From Sulfolobales archaeon (GTDB lineage: Archaea; Thermoproteota; Thermoprotei_A; Sulfolobales; NBVN01), in NCBI GenBank assembly GCA_026419835.1, contig JAOAKQ010000001.1:62001-126000 (forward strand): a stretch of DNA of 64,000 nt. Direction: 5' to 3'. The position numbers and the translations under genes were made by a program. The notes under the pieces were generated by a model. It saw only the letters and a list, made by a program, of their open reading frames with translations. It was not told the DNA's origin and made no database searches. Below are positions 7,430-49,169 of this stretch, one piece after another. Each line of letters opens with the position of its first letter. Position 1 is the stretch's first letter.

Positions 7430-7482
7430 AACGTGTTTTAAGAACTGTAAATAAAGACCGCGAGATCCCGGTCTTGGTGAGC

Positions 7483-8197
7483 GTGCTGAACATGAGCCTC
7501 AGCGGTAGAGTAGCTCTCATAACTGGAGGTGGTGCTGGTATTGGACATGAGATTGCTCATACTCTAGCAAAACACGGTGCTGACTTAATCGTCGTCGAGA
7601 AGAAGGCTGAAGTCCTGCGCAGAGTAGTCGATGAACTCACCGGTCTCGGTAGGAGAGTACCCCCCCGCAAGCGGACGTCACAAAGAAAAATGAGGTAGAT
7701 AATGCTGTAGGTAGAGCCGTAAGTGAATTCGGTAAAATCGATATACTAGTAAATAACGTAGGAGCCTACCCGAGGCACAGCTTTCTTGAAATGAAGGAGG
7801 ATGAGTGGTTTGAGATTATGAATGTAAATTTAACGAGTATGTTCTACGAGTCCCAGGTTTAGTCCACTACGGAGCGGCGAAAGCCGGTGTAGTAGGTTTT
7901 ACTAAGTGCTTAGCAGCCGAGCTAGCTCCGTACAATATCACGGTTAACGCTATCGCTCCAGGACCGATACTCACGGAAGGCGTTAAACCTATCTGGGCTC
8001 CGGAAGACATTAAGTTACAGGAAATGGTTACGCCGTTAGGTAGGTTTGGCCTTCCATCTGACGTAGCCGGCATGGTTCTGTTCCTCGTAAGTGATTACGT
8101 TGAGTTCATTACCGGGCAGGTATTCATAGTTGATGGAGGTCTTACATTAGTTAATCCTAGACTCGTCGTTAAGAACATCCTGAAATCTGCTCGGTAG
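7483..8197 (+). pseudogene. Decayed short-chain dehydrogenase/reductase (FabG-like)
   Basis: Three pieces in different frames together make an SDR. Piece 1 (7483-7659) holds the NAD(P)-binding TGGGAGIG. Piece 2 (about 7665-7861, frame changed at a run of seven C at 7660-7666) holds ADVT and the NNVG motif, and ends in a TAG stop at 7859-7861. Piece 3 (from 7862) resumes at the catalytic Tyr/Lys block (HYGAAKAG) and runs to the normal C-terminus GQVFIVDGG. About 30 residues, including the catalytic Ser region, are missing between pieces 2 and 3, so a deletion of roughly 90 bases is inferred. The promoter (GTAAATAAAG near 7448-7457) and a GTG start are intact. The C-run shift alone could be a sequencing error; the deletion is harder to explain that way. 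Confidence 0.85.
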
Positions 8198-8273
8198 GGC
8201 GAGAGAAGTCGAGGTTCGCGTAGTTGAAATCTATCAGACAGGTCTCTACGTAGTTAAACGCTCAGTTTTTAAG

Positions 8274-8281
8274 TAATTATC
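8274..8281 (+). promoter_or_regulatory. TATA-like box for thyX
   Basis: The AT-rich TAATTATC is centred about 26 bases upstream of the in-frame CTG at 8304. That is the usual distance from an archaeal TATA box to the transcription start, so the transcript would begin at or next to that CTG. A second AT-rich stretch, TTTTTAAG at 8266-8273, is an alternative box. Confidence 0.45.
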
Positions 8282-8303
8282 TAATTAGTCTAGTGGGGTC
8301 TAC

Positions 8304-8933
8304 CTGAGAGTCACGCTAGTATCTTGGAGTTCTCCAGCTGATGCTGACCCTAGAAGACTCATTGTACTAGCTGTGAAAACTTCTCAAGGAAAGCTTTCAC
8401 ACGATACCTTACCGCATTATCTAAGAGACTACCCGGAGAAAGACGTGCGTGGCTGGATCCTTGAATCCGCAAACTTTCCGTCAGTTCTAGAGCACGTATC
8501 GTTTACATTTCTTATCGAGGGTATTTCTAGAGTTACTTCTCATCAACTAGTCAGGCATAGAATAGCCTCCTATACTCAGGAATCTCAAAGATATTCTGAA
8601 GCTGGGCGCGATTACGTAGTACCGGAGTCCGTTGTAGCGGGGGGGTTTGAAGAGAAGTTCAGAGACCTCGTCGAGAACTCCTTCAAACTCTACGCAGAGA
8701 TGGTTAAAGCGGGTATTCCGATGGAGGACGCTAGGTACATCCTACCTCAAGCTGTTACTACTAGGATACTGATGACTGTAAACCTAAGAGAACTACTACA
8801 CATAGCCTGTCTTAGACTTTCAGAGAAAGCTCAGTGGGAAATTAGAGAACTAGTCAGAGAGATGATTAACGAAGCTTCAAAAATAGTTCCTGAAATCTAC
8901 AACCTACTGACGGCTTTATGTAGTGAGAAGTAA
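8304..8933 (+). CDS. thyX: Flavin-dependent thymidylate synthase
   Basis: ThyX makes dTMP from dUMP using FAD and methylene-folate (or a methanopterin-type C1 donor). The signature RHRX7S is present as R84-H85-R86...S94 (RHRIASYTQES), followed by QRYS. The N-terminal sequence LRVTLVSWSS.. matches the beginning of ThyX proteins but lies upstream of the first GTG (8373). Between the in-frame TAG at 8286 and that GTG there is no ATG, GTG or TTG. The CTG at 8304, sitting where a leaderless start is expected, is therefore the best start and gives 209 residues. RadA follows on the same strand after about 40 bases. Confidence 0.9.
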   Translation: MRVTLVSWSSPADADPRRLIVLAVKTSQGKLSHDTLPHYLRDYPEKDVRGWILESANFPSVLEHVSFTFLIEGISRVTSHQLVRHRIASYTQESQRYSEAGRDYVVPESVVAGGFEEKFRDLVENSFKLYAEMVKAGIPMEDARYILPQAVTTRILMTVNLRELLHIACLRLSEKAQWEIRELVREMINEASKIVPEIYNLLTALCSEK

Positions 8934-29141: not shown

Positions 29142-29876
29142 CTATATGGAATAGGAGCAAGATCTTTCCCAATGATTTCTACGAGCGCTCAATCTAGCTC
29201 TGAGGGAGTGCAGGGTCCTGCTTCTTATCGAGCTTAGAGACTTAAGAAAATCTAGTGCCGCACTGTAGCGAGGTTCCACTCTAGATTTTCTAATACCTTC
29301 AACAACACTCTCGGCATCGAATTTTCCAATCTCTACGAGGGTGTACGCAGAACCGATCATCTCAGGTACGTGTGCATCGCTTCCAGCGATCCTACATTTC
29401 TTGCTATTAGCTACGTATGCCGTATAAAAGTTTGTTACTATATCTGAGGAGGAGTTATGTACTTCTACGCAATCTAAGTGCCTTAATTCAAACAACCTAC
29501 CGCAACCTTCTCTAGATACAGCATATGGGTGAGCAGCTACTGTAACGCAGTTCTCTGTAGCGGCTAGTTCCACCACCGACAGGAACTCTACGTACTTCGT
29601 AACCCTACTTCCCGATTTAAGCTTAAGTACTGAAGCTAGCGGTATTCTACTGCACAGCAGCAACACATCACCGAACTCCGTTCTAAACTCAGCGCCCGGC
29701 ACGAGAATTACTCCTTCTTCGGCCCCCCTCTTCATGGCTATGTACGACCCGAGAAAGGTGTTGTGGTCTGTTATCGAGATAGCGGACAGACCTCTCTTCT
29801 TAGCTACTCTAACTACATCCTGAGGACTCATCGCTCCATCGCTTACGTAGCTATGGATGTGTAAGTCAGCTTTAAT
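29142..29876 (-). CDS. PHP-domain phosphoesterase
   Basis: PHP proteins are metal-dependent phosphoesterases, of the YciV/TrpH type when standing alone. The first metal motif DLHIHS and the following SDG are present but encoded upstream of the first ATG (29831). No ATG, GTG or TTG lies before them in frame. ATT at 29876, sharing one base with the stop of the upstream gene (ATTAA), would give IKADLHIHSYVSDG, the exact expected N-terminus; CTG at 29900 is another option. TDHNTF and GSDAHVPE complete the metal site. The length would be 244 residues. It is cotranscribed with the acyl-CoA synthetase gene. Confidence 0.85.
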   Translation of the reverse strand: MKADLHIHSYVSDGAMSPQDVVRVAKKRGLSAISITDHNTFLGSYIAMKRGAEEGVILVPGAEFRTEFGDVLLLCSRIPLASVLKLKSGSRVTKYVEFLSVVELAATENCVTVAAHPYAVSREGCGRLFELRHLDCVEVHNSSSDIVTNFYTAYVANSKKCRIAGSDAHVPEMIGSAYTLVEIGKFDAESVVEGIRKSRVEPRYSAALDFLKSLSSIRSRTLHSLRARLSARRNHWERSCSYSI

Positions 29877-31290
29877 CCAGCTTACTGTAGGTCCCCCCAG
29901 CGTACTTCTCGTACCATTCTCCAGCTAGCTTGAGAACTCTAACCGCTTCCTCCGGAGACTTGAAGCACGGAACTCTGAGTTCTCTCTCAATAATCTTTGC
30001 GTACTTTATCGTGTACCCACCTCCAGGAGCTACTAGAACTATGGGCTTCAAGGACTGGCTGCGCACATCTCTCACTAGTTCGATAAACTTGAGCGGATCG
30101 AATGCCGGTGACTGCATTAAAGTTATGACCAGCACTAGGTCGACCTCACTATCGCTAAGAGCTATCTCCATAGCCGCTCTATATCTCTCTGGAGGTGCGT
30201 CTCCCAGGATATCGATCGGGTTGTTGGGGGATGCCGCTGGTGGCAAGGTCTTTTTCAATTTCTCGATGGACTCAGCTGAGAGAGGTGCTAGCGCCATTCC
30301 CTTGCTCTCAACTTCGTCGGCCGCTAAAACACCCATTCCACCACCATTAGTTACCACGGCAACCTTCCTACCTCTTGGAGGCCCCGACCACTCCAATACT
30401 TTTAGTAATCCAACGAACTCACTAAGATTTTCAACTACGATCGCGCCAGCCTGTTTTACGGCGGATATGAAAACATCTGAGCTAGTTGTTAGAGCTCCAG
30501 TATGCGATGTAACTGCTCTAACTCCAGACTGAGTTCTACCTCCTTTAAGTACTACGACTGGTTTCCCAGCCGCTATAGCTTTTCTTAGGCTACCCACAAA
30601 CCTTCTTCCATCCTCAACCCCCTCTACGTATAGAGCTATTACCTTAGTTTGAGGATCTTCAACGAGGTACTCCACCAACTCCCACTCCTTAATATCCGCA
30701 GCGTTGCCGTAGCTTACGAACTTACTCATCCCAATTTCCGACTCAGCTAGCCAGTCTAGTATGGCAGCTCCCAGGGCTCCTGATTGAGAGAGGAGAGCTA
30801 TCGTGCCCGGACCCGGCTTGGACTGCCTATCTCCAGGATTGAATATAGTGTCCACTCCACTCCACGCATCGTATATCCCCAGGCAGTTAGGTCCTAGAAT
30901 CCTCATTCCACAAGACCTAGCGGCACTAACTAACTCGGACTCCAGTTTCGCGCCCTCGGCGCCCACCTCCTTAAATCCAGCGCTAACTACTATAGAAACC
31001 CTCACACCTATTTCACACAATCCCCTGGCAAGTTCCGGAGTACTTCGGGCCGGTACAGCAACAACAGCTAGGTCAGGTGTTTTCGGTAGTTCTCTCACAG
31101 ACTTGTAGCACTTTAAACCAAAAACCAGGTCGTACTTCTGGTTTACTGGGTATATATCGCCTTTAAAGGAATTAAGAAGATTCTCGATTACCGCTCTACC
31201 AACGGTACCAGGCTTTTCCGAAGCACCTATTACAGCTATTGAACGAGGTTTGAACATGACCTCCAAACTCGGGCACTTCAGTTCCCGCAC
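29872..31290 (-). CDS. acdA: ADP-forming acyl-CoA synthetase, alpha subunit (CoA-binding)
   Basis: NDP-forming acyl-CoA synthetases couple acyl-CoA breakdown to ADP phosphorylation in archaea. The CoA-binding fold begins with VIGAS (20-24). The ligase blocks GPNCLG (133-138) and SQSGALG (168-174) follow, and the phosphorylated His is H263 (TSHTGAL). At 472 residues it is an alpha chain only; the ATP-grasp beta chain is not in the neighbourhood and must be encoded elsewhere. The start is GTG at 31290 with a GATATATGG box about 30 bases upstream. Its stop overlaps the probable ATT start of the PHP gene. Confidence 0.9.
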   Translation of the reverse strand: MRELKCPSLEVMFKPRSIAVIGASEKPGTVGRAVIENLLNSFKGDIYPVNQKYDLVFGLKCYKSVRELPKTPDLAVVAVPARSTPELARGLCEIGVRVSIVVSAGFKEVGAEGAKLESELVSAARSCGMRILGPNCLGIYDAWSGVDTIFNPGDRQSKPGPGTIALLSQSGALGAAILDWLAESEIGMSKFVSYGNAADIKEWELVEYLVEDPQTKVIALYVEGVEDGRRFVGSLRKAIAAGKPVVVLKGGRTQSGVRAVTSHTGALTTSSDVFISAVKQAGAIVVENLSEFVGLLKVLEWSGPPRGRKVAVVTNGGGMGVLAADEVESKGMALAPLSAESIEKLKKTLPPAASPNNPIDILGDAPPERYRAAMEIALSDSEVDLVLVITLMQSPAFDPLKFIELVRDVRSQSLKPIVLVAPGGGYTIKYAKIIERELRVPCFKSPEEAVRVLKLAGEWYEKYAGGTYSKLD

Positions 31291-32292: not shown

Positions 32293-32387
32293 TGGTAGCG
32301 GGGGGTGGATTTGAACCACCGACCTCGGGGTCTCACAGGTATTTCACCATATGAGCCCCGCGGGCTACCAGGCTACCCCACCCCGCT
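32293..32387 (-). tRNA. tRNA-iMet (CAT) with an 18-base intron
   Basis: Read on the minus strand, AGCGGGG pairs with CCCCGCT as the acceptor stem, the discriminator A and the CCA (32296-32293) are encoded, and the T arm is GGTGG-TTCAAAT-CCACC. The anticodon stem CGGGG/CCCCG holds the loop CTCATAA after removal of an intron at 32332-32349, between positions 37 and 38. CTCA in the exon pairs with TGAG in the intron as the central helix of a relaxed bulge-helix-bulge. The three G-C pairs in the anticodon stem mark the initiator type. Confidence 0.93.
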
Positions 32388-40193: not shown

Positions 40194-41405
40194 CTACGTA
40201 GCTATTAGACCCATAACTACCCGCTTCCGAGCTCCAGTAGCTCTCGGAACGTTGTTCGGTATACCACTTAGAGCTTCGTGCGCTAGCACCGCCATTCCAA
40301 GAGCTTCCTTATACTTAGAGTCTATTCCAAGTTCTTCGTGAAAGATCAGTCTCAGTCCTCTCTTTCTAAGTTCTTTCTCTAGTTCGCGAACCAGGAACCT
40401 ATTTCTAGTACCCCCACCGCCAAGAACTACTTCCGAGAACTTCTTTCCCGTATTTTTAAGTACGTACATATCGTAGTTATACACTATACTCTTGACTGTG
40501 AACATGGAGACCGTGGCTACGATATCCTTCTTCGAGAGTCCTAGGCTTAGTCCCCTCTTGATTACGTACTCAGCAAATCGGTGACCGAACTCTCTCCTAC
40601 CAGCCGTTTTAGGTGGAGGCGCGCGCACGAATTCGTTCGCCATCAGCTCGCTCAGCAGCTCTAAACTAACGTCTCCTTCCGCAGCTTCGGAACCATCTAA
40701 ATCGAACTCAACTCCGTAGAGAGCTCTCATAACTTCATCAATTACCATGTTACCAGGTCCGGTATCGAAAGCATGGACTTCGGATACGTCAGCGTTTGGA
40801 GGTAGGACAGTTACGTTAGCAATTCCACCTATGTTCTGAATAAGTCTACCAGTAGCACTAGAGGTAAGAAGAGCCCAGTCAACGTAAGCTATGATCGGGG
40901 CTCCATGGCCTCCAGCGGCAACATCCCTACTTCTAAAGTCTCCAACGGTGACTATACCGGTGTCCTCAGCTATGACCGATAGATTACCTATTTGAAGAGT
41001 GCACCTCGTCACCACGTCACCGACTCTAACGTACTCAGGCATGTGGTAAACTGTCTGTCCGTGAGAGCCTATAGCATCAACTTCTGAGGAGCTAATACCG
41101 CTACTCTCTAAGGTACCAACGATAGCTTTCGCAAAGAGTAGGCCAATGACGTAGTTTAAGACGCAGACATCCTCCACGCTACCGACCTCAGAACTAAGAA
41201 GTACCTTCTTCTTTACATCGGGATGGTACGGAACGACGTTTTTAGAGACGAGCCTCCACTTAATACTCCTACCGTGGTTCTCTACATCGACTACTGCGAT
41301 ATCAACACCATCCGCGCTCGTACCGGAAATAGCACCTACGATGAGTCTCCTATCCCTACTCGCAATTTGAGAAAGCCTTTCAATAGGGTTCGTATGGTCC
41401 CTCAG
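40194..41405 (-). CDS. anmK: Anhydro-N-acetylmuramic acid kinase-like (AnmK)
   Basis: AnmK is a sugar kinase of the actin-like fold. The conserved N-terminal ATP motif is encoded as VGAISGTSADGVDIAVVD, followed by GSHGQTVYH and NIGGIANVT. These N-terminal residues lie upstream of the first canonical start (GTG at 41177). In the open frame there is no ATG, GTG or TTG down from the TAG near 41436. CTG at 41405 is the most likely start and gives 403 residues; a TTTATTTAA box lies about 22-25 bases upstream. Archaea lack murein, so the substrate is unclear. The convergent neighbour is the VWA gene. Confidence 0.85.
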   Translation of the reverse strand: MRDHTNPIERLSQIASRDRRLIVGAISGTSADGVDIAVVDVENHGRSIKWRLVSKNVVPYHPDVKKKVLLSSEVGSVEDVCVLNYVIGLLFAKAIVGTLESSGISSSEVDAIGSHGQTVYHMPEYVRVGDVVTRCTLQIGNLSVIAEDTGIVTVGDFRSRDVAAGGHGAPIIAYVDWALLTSSATGRLIQNIGGIANVTVLPPNADVSEVHAFDTGPGNMVIDEVMRALYGVEFDLDGSEAAEGDVSLELLSELMANEFVRAPPPKTAGRREFGHRFAEYVIKRGLSLGLSKKDIVATVSMFTVKSIVYNYDMYVLKNTGKKFSEVVLGGGGTRNRFLVRELEKELRKRGLRLIFHEELGIDSKYKEALGMAVLAHEALSGIPNNVPRATGARKRVVMGLIAT

Positions 41406-48025: not shown

Positions 48026-48574
48026 TTAGTATGGAACTTCCTTCAACTTAGCTAAGTACGCTACGTAATTAGCTATTGGATGTAGTACTAGAGCTAGTGT
48101 GATCGCCACCACTAGTTCAATTAAACCAAGCTCTACACCTACGCGAAGGTCTACTTTAAGCAGCTTTACGAGTAGTAGAGATACTAGTATGAAAGACGTC
48201 TGGTCGAGAACTGGTAGAAGGCTCCCGGGCTTTAGTCCAAGCCTTCTCTTTAGAAAGGAGTTCGCTAAGTCGCCAAGCATCGAGCCAACTCCCTGAACTA
48301 ACCCAGCAATAGCTAAATCATGGAGGGAGCTATGGTAGAAGGCTAGTAGAGCTACTCCAGATAGCATGCCTACGAGAACTCCAGCGAGCAGACCTTCCCA
48401 ACTTTTACTATCACCAAAAACTCTCCTGCCGTCTAAGAAGTTTCTACCAAAATCGACTGGATGAACTCTTTTCAGAAATTTTCGTACTATGAGGGGAGAA
48501 GTATTCGATAGGTACGATGGTACTAGAAGTACTAGCTTACTCGCCAGCTCTACGTAGCTATTCAAACTCAACAC
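48026..48574 (-). CDS. carS: CDP-archaeol synthase
   Basis: CarS activates 2,3-bis-geranylgeranyl-glycerol phosphate with CTP for archaeal phospholipid synthesis. Motifs: GDSKSWEG (about 54-61), and the C-terminal GDLANSFLKRRLGLKPGSLLPVLDQ block, carrying the acidic residues of the family. About five membrane segments are present. The 182-residue length is usual. Its start overlaps the end of the RadB-like gene by 17 bases. Confidence 0.94.
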   Translation of the reverse strand: MLSLNSYVELASKLVLLVPSYLSNTSPLIVRKFLKRVHPVDFGRNFLDGRRVFGDSKSWEGLLAGVLVGMLSGVALLAFYHSSLHDLAIAGLVQGVGSMLGDLANSFLKRRLGLKPGSLLPVLDQTSFILVSLLLVKLLKVDLRVGVELGLIELVVAITLALVLHPIANYVAYLAKLKEVPY

Positions 48575-49145
48575 CTCGGTCAGTAATCGAGAACCTTATC
48601 TTACGAGCTCTAAGCTCGCTGGGCTTGATGAACTCGACTTCCCTTCTAATTTCTTTCTTCTTTACTTCAGCAACTATATCAGACCAGAACTCGAGAATTT
48701 CGTAACCGCTGGGAACTACCTCACCCTCCTCTTCTCTGACTTGAGCTATGAGTAAGACCCTAGAACCATAGATACTGGCAGTATGCGAGAGAAGAGCTAG
48801 CGAAGTATTAAGTAGTTTATTGGCTGTAGGTTTCTCGATAACTTCGTATCTATAGTGTGCGTTAATAGAATCTACACACACATTCTTAAACTTCTTCAAT
48901 AATCCCTCTACGAACATCTCAGTAAGTAGGATTGATAGGTCCTCCACGCTGAAGACCTCCCTAAAGTAGAACTCTTTATCGAGCAGGGAGTACCTCTCTA
49001 GGAGAGATGCCGGTAGAGAACCCTCAGTACTTAAGTACAAAGACTGCTCAGCACTTCTCGATACGGTCCAGAGGCAGAGATTAGTTTTACCGACACCAGC
49101 ACTACCGTATAGTAAGCTCACCCTACCATCAGTAACTTCAACCAG
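48558..49145 (-). CDS. RadB/RadC-like RecA-family ATPase
   Basis: A RecA-fold ATPase without the HhH domain, like archaeal RadB/aRadC recombination mediators. Walker A GSAGVGKT is at residues 14-21 in the chosen frame, and Walker B ends in NVCVDSI. The first canonical start (GTG, 49121) would begin only four residues before the Walker A strand and delete the core strand. The in-frame CTG at 49145 gives LVEVTDGRVSLLYGSAG, the proper beginning, and lies 27 bases downstream of a TTTATA box at 49170-49175, so it is a likely leaderless start. Another in-frame CTG is at 49157. The downstream carS overlaps by 17 bases. Confidence 0.82.
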   Translation of the reverse strand: MVEVTDGRVSLLYGSAGVGKTNLCLWTVSRSAEQSLYLSTEGSLPASLLERYSLLDKEFYFREVFSVEDLSILLTEMFVEGLLKKFKNVCVDSINAHYRYEVIEKPTANKLLNTSLALLSHTASIYGSRVLLIAQVREEEGEVVPSGYEILEFWSDIVAEVKKKEIRREVEFIKPSELRARKIRFSITDRGVEFE

Positions 49146-49169
49146 CCACCTACCCAGATGCCGCCCTAG

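Follow-up and report, generated by a model that had tools for sequence, protein, structure and literature searches.

A CTG codon as the probable thyX start in a Sulfolobales archaeon, and Shine-Dalgarno-backed near-cognate start candidates in its relatives

The thyX locus and its reading frame

The window analysed here, a stretch of 64,000 nucleotides, corresponds to positions 62001-126000 of contig C19 of genome G000, a MAG of 1.42 Mb that is 84% complete and consists of 107 contigs. The nearest named relatives of G000 are Sulfolobales/Desulfurococcales MAGs, and Zestosphaera tikiterensis appears to be a member of its family, the thyX locus of that species (L017) matching genome G007. G000 and the relatives compared with it are all MAGs, and all support given below is derived from sequence.

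The thyX coding sequence extends from position 8304 to 8933 on the forward strand and comprises 209 codons plus TAA. The identity of the product is indicated by PF02511 (E=6e-56, 189.7 bits against a cut-off of 24.8) and by the curated model TIGR02170 (152.6 bits against a cut-off of 87.9). In addition, the translation contains RHRIASYTQES, in agreement with RHRx7S, which we take to be the ThyX motif. Direct reading of the sequence places a TAG stop codon in the same frame at positions 8286-8288, which is followed by the codons TCT AGT GGG GTC TAC CTG AGA GTC ACG CTA, the CTG occupying positions 8304-8306. It also confirmed the original prediction that no ATG, GTG or TTG is present in frame between this TAG and the GTG at positions 8373-8375, the first canonical codon of the frame.

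Upstream, thyX is adjoined by an SDR/FabG-like gene (positions 7430-8198, forward strand), which is broken and represents a pseudogene: its N-terminal half stops at about position 7860, its C-terminal half can be read in a different frame, and the middle segment is missing. At the corresponding position genome G001 contains a remnant that is further decayed than in G000.

As the original prediction had proposed, thyX was compared with its sister genes. The codon in the column of position 8304 is CTG in both G000 and its closest sister G001, TTG in G002, G005 and G006, and ATG in G004; G003 has ACG in this column and an in-frame GTG three codons upstream with a G-rich motif of its own. The conservation of the ThyX N-terminus upstream of GTG 8373, likewise predicted, was borne out by this comparison and reaches residue 1. 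Of codons 2-23, 10 are identical between G000 and G001, 10 differ synonymously and 2 non-synonymously, and upstream of the CTG single-base indels break the frame; therefore the conserved frame begins at or beside CTG 8304. Apart from the start codon, thyX is intact and evolves under purifying selection. In G001 an in-frame GTG is located four codons upstream of the thyX CTG. It was ruled out as the start by the TATA spacing and by its Shine-Dalgarno (SD) matrix score (p=0.51, reached by 51% of random positions, versus p=0.016 and 1.6% for the CTG), and thus the CTG is the better start in G001 as well.

Promoter and Shine-Dalgarno signals upstream of thyX

Alignments of up to eight genomes served to define a set of confident canonical starts. 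The sampled DNA comprised 340 kb of G000, 486 kb of G001, 432 kb of G005, 425 kb of G004, 400 kb of G022 and 240 kb of G026 as well as parts of G002 and G006, the survey covering approximately 15-37% of each main genome. Confident starts with intergenic sequence upstream revealed an AT peak (TATA) at about -36 to -33 and a G-rich peak (SD) at -12 to -7. Moreover, GGTG was present within -15 to -5 in 37-62% of the genes, as compared with 2-5% by chance, and the 16S rRNA of relatives ends with GGATCACCTCC at the 3′-terminus. Judging from these signals, the genes of the lineage to which thyX belongs are short-leader and SD-bearing, not leaderless.

The region upstream of thyX is in line with this layout. 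The TATA-like element TTTTTAAG (positions 8266-8273, forward strand) is located at -38 to -31 from CTG 8304, has its counterpart in TTTTAAAG of G001 at identical spacing, and is resembled by AT-rich boxes in G002, G004, G005 and G006. The SD-like sequence GTGGGGT (positions 8293-8299, forward strand) is located at -11 to -5, and its core GGGGT can pair with CACCUCC at the 16S rRNA 3′-end, including one G-U pair. At CTG 8304 the SD matrix score corresponds to p=0.0087, a value reached by 0.9% of random positions. The duplex with the anti-SD sequence amounts to -6.4 kcal/mol; the median is -5.8 at real starts and -2.6 at random sites, and 8% of the latter form a duplex as strong as that of thyX. 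By these measures we consider the thyX SD signal good, not extreme. With TATA and SD elements at the usual distances, the thyX mRNA would possess a leader of approximately 7-13 nt that carries the SD sequence.

The original prediction had placed thyX on a leaderless transcript. On this reading transcription, driven by TAATTATC, begins at or next to position 8304, and the 5′-terminal CUG is read directly. TAATTATC (positions 8274-8281) does precede the CTG as predicted, though by 22 nt and not by 26, and it is partly kept in G001; its spacing would allow a 5′-end at 8304. However, TTTTTAAG is better placed, and from its spacing the 5′-end would lie upstream of 8304. Moreover, thyX has both elements that characterize the genes of its lineage, and the G-rich motif at the position of GTGGGGT recurs across the genus. 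A leaderless start is thus not supported, and we regard it as unlikely.

Initiation at GTG 8373, which would imply a shorter gene or an N-terminal truncation with incidental conservation upstream, is very improbable. Although this GTG is the sole canonical codon at hand, its SD score is background-like (p=0.25), most changes within the conserved codons 2-23 are synonymous, and a start at this site would drop 23 residues that are kept in all relatives.

We consider it just as improbable that the CTG reflects an error of sequencing or assembly, or a start codon that was recently broken. The fragmentation of the MAG and the SDR pseudogene directly upstream would be compatible with such an event, but the CTG recurs at this column in G001, which was assembled independently, the rest of thyX is intact and under purifying selection, and further CTG and ACG cases are common to independent assemblies, as described below for the nusA-like, hypF and DNA ligase genes. 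The claim that the missing canonical start is not a single sequencing error is thereby supported.

Near-cognate start candidates in other genes

The original prediction named three other genes of the window, anmK (PF03702), a KaiC/RadB-like ATPase (weak PF06745 match) and a PHP-domain protein (PF02811), as showing the same pattern. In all three, a canonical start is indeed absent before the conserved region, but the pattern is not of equal strength. The PHP gene (29142-29912, reverse strand) has an ACG at 29912-29910, opposite an ATG in G001, with an SD that is weak by the matrix (p=0.19). The CTG candidate of the KaiC/RadB-like gene (48558-49157, reverse strand), located at 49157-49155, is shared with G001 and G005 at the corresponding column, again with a weak SD (p=0.17). 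In anmK (40194-41405, reverse strand), 72 conserved codons precede the first canonical codon; its CTG candidate at 41405-41403 is also found in G001, where it is followed by a GTG, and the SD is poor in both species. From these signals we are less sure that the near-cognate mechanism applies to the three genes, above all to anmK.

To look beyond the window, we compiled a survey set of 74 genes in 57 ortholog groups whose conserved coding sequence begins 6 or more codons before the first canonical codon, with no other gene there. A plain listing of ORFs conserved upstream of the first canonical codon had been dominated by shadow ORFs, and non-overlapping best genes were used instead. In-frame codons near the conserved border were then scored for a well-placed SD (matrix p<=0.015), a test that is independent of the start codons of relatives. 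Such an SD preceded 14 of 38 CTG codons, 3 of 17 ACG, 3 of 32 ATA, 2 of 16 ATC and 1 of 14 ATT, and about 30 of the 864 codons of all other kinds. The enrichment is strong for CTG (Fisher p=1.1e-9 versus other codons, 4% of which have such an SD), and it is also seen for ACG (p=0.02) and for ATA, ATC and ATT combined (p=0.03). The same threshold is passed by 32-39% of canonical starts and by 1.8% of internal CTG codons (53 of 2883), the survey rate being 20 times the latter (p=1.7e-14); counted once per ortholog group, 26 groups contain a CTG, and in 12 of these it has an SD. Hence, with an SD rate equal to that of canonical starts and far above that of internal CTGs, the CTG codons of the survey set behave like real starts. 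A few of the 14 may nevertheless be internal, for example in the membrane protein G001_1579/G005_899. A leave-one-out count of codons that deviate from the consensus in start columns is confounded by start shifts and was replaced by the SD-based test; CTG was the commonest outlier in it (8 of 37), which is suggestive.

The individual cases include hypF, livF, nusA-like, rpoB, rpsC, rpsS, metG, lig and aIF1A, names that we read off the translations and that are accordingly presumptive. For hypF, CTG is present in G000 and G001 and TTG in G002. The CTG of the livF-like ABC ATPase (L126, 1316-1318; C19:127316 of G000; forward strand) directly follows an in-frame TAG and has the SD GGGGTG; in its place G001 has an ATC behind TAA, likewise with an SD, and G005 a GTG. 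CTG is shared by the nusA-like genes of G001, G004 and G005, and it is found in rpsC of G005, where other genomes have GTG or TTG. The rpoB gene of G026 (L202, about 5323 on contig C1, reverse strand) has a CTG, its congener G022 an ATG, and 101 conserved codons precede the first canonical codon in G026. In G004, a candidate CTG start of aIF1A is located behind GGTGGTGA (L107, about 10594 on contig C12, forward strand). ACG is found for rpsS in G001 and G005, for metG in G000 (L131, about 819-821; C19:226821; reverse strand) and for DNA ligase in G022 (L184, about 16845 on contig C1, forward strand) and G026, four other genomes having GTG or ATG for the ligase. The ACG codons of metG and of the G022/G026 ligases are preceded by a near-identical leader, GGGTGTGAAGT(A) or GGGTGTGATGC. 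Several of these cases are universal essential genes and must therefore be translated.

A conserved pair, G026_817 and G022_645, displays apparent ATA starts (GAGCTTTAATATCG and GAACTCTGATATCG, respectively) with GGTG at -11 in both.

C-to-U editing of the mRNA, which would present the ribosome with UUG and AUG in place of CTG and ACG, fits the observation that the two commonest non-canonical codons are exactly those made canonical by one such change, but it could mend neither the ATC of livF in G001 nor the ATA of G026_817, both with an SD, and TTG and ATG are commonly altered by T-to-C mutation, so that the pattern is expected without editing; no archaeal enzyme that edits mRNA in this way is known to us, and this is the least probable of the alternatives.

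Proposed initiation mechanism and relation to known systems

Taken together, the start-column alignment, the conservation limit and the TATA/SD spacing support initiation at CTG 8304. Including the enrichment statistics and the normal initiator tRNA, they make it highly probable that thyX is translated from this CTG on a short-leader transcript, and that SD-assisted near-cognate starts are used in approximately 1-3% of the genes of the genus of G000 and of its sister genus. We infer the transcript start, initiation at CUG and the N-terminal methionine as follows. TBP would bind to TTTTTAAG, and transcription would begin approximately 7-13 nt before thyX. The GTGGGGT segment would then pair with the 3′-end of the 16S rRNA and bring the CUG into the P site, to be accepted there by the ordinary initiator Met-tRNA (CAU) despite the mismatch at the first position. 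ThyX would consequently begin with methionine. Other near-cognate codons, mostly CUG, some ACG and possibly AUA or AUC, would be used likewise, also in essential genes.

The window encodes the initiator tRNA-Met(CAU) at positions 32293-32387 on the reverse strand (ARAGORN; Rfam tRNA match), with an intron after the anticodon. It is of the A1-U72 type, and the same normal type is present in G001, G004 and G005; a second, special initiator tRNA was not found in the sampled DNA. Loss of aIF1 was ruled out as the cause, since 56 of 60 relatives, G000 among them, carry SUI1. We conclude that SD-assisted near-cognate initiation by the ordinary initiator tRNA is probably a recurrent trait of the family of G000. 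A wider reading, which we hold only tentatively and rate slightly below an even chance, is that start recognition is relaxed throughout this uncultured Sulfolobales/Desulfurococcales family, CUG and ACG, accompanied to a smaller extent by AUA and AUC, serving as regular starts of essential genes (RNA polymerase B, ribosomal proteins S3 and S19, MetRS, DNA ligase and aIF1A). If so, an altered fidelity of aIF1, aIF1A, aIF2 or the ribosome would be implied, and regulation via start-codon strength would be possible, as aIF1A itself appears to be CTG-started in one species. In bacteria, infC, encoding IF3, starts with AUU and is autoregulated. This start is likewise outside AUG, GUG and UUG, in an essential gene and with an SD, but it concerns a single autoregulated gene, whereas many genes are concerned here. 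The aIF1A CTG of G004 invites comparison with the IF3 case, as a lead only.

The crenarchaeal surveys of start codons retrieved in our search list ATG, GTG and TTG only (PMC5911459, PMC5556600). Aeropyrum pernix has UUG-dominated starts preceded by an SD (PMC5911459, citing Yamazaki 2006 and Torarinsson 2005). Like the lineage of G000, it is a crenarchaeon with an SD at about -15 to -4 and heavy use of non-AUG starts; in contrast to that lineage, only ATG, GTG and TTG are reported for A. pernix, and no CTG or ACG (PMC5911459). Across 36 prokaryotic groups, Belinky et al. 2017 found that, of about 69,000 ancestral starts, only 4 had switched to CUG (PMC5622118). Their study likewise describes canonical codons and CUG replacing one another among related genomes, and stronger SD sequences that compensate weak start codons, but CUG was rare, in counts from annotations made largely without CTG (PMC5622118). 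In Methanosarcina mazei, Ribo-seq assigned CTG starts to 5% of the unannotated small ORFs (PMC11456600). This is likewise archaeal CUG initiation, experimental there and deduced from sequence here; the genes concerned are small ORFs of unknown importance there and conserved essential genes in the lineage of G000 (PMC11456600). CTG starts are thus already known as rarities. Our literature search, conducted mostly outside subscription papers, returned no account of crenarchaea in which CTG or ACG starts recur, and as far as the literature searched shows, recurrent, conserved and SD-backed CTG/ACG starts such as those proposed for essential genes of one archaeal family are new. Prodigal leaves CTG, ATA and ATT outside the starts it considers (PMC2848648), and the annotated frequency of near-cognate starts is therefore a lower bound. 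Gene callers that skip these codons silently truncate or lose such archaeal genes; RpoB of G026 would lose approximately 100 residues under standard gene calling. CUG and ACG starts in essential archaeal genes would provide a natural test bed for the start-codon stringency of aIF1, aIF1A and aIF2, a question shared with eukaryotic near-cognate initiation.

As a control, G035, from another family of the order, was examined. Among its 110 genes with orthologues, 5 needed an upstream start; this control is small and yielded one CTG candidate, and specificity to the family of G000 is therefore not established. The candidate, a Dph6-like ATPase (L232, contig C1 of G035, ORF from 27390, reverse strand), lacks a canonical codon for approximately 47 codons and has its CTG opposite a TTG in G000, so that near-cognate starts may reach beyond this family.
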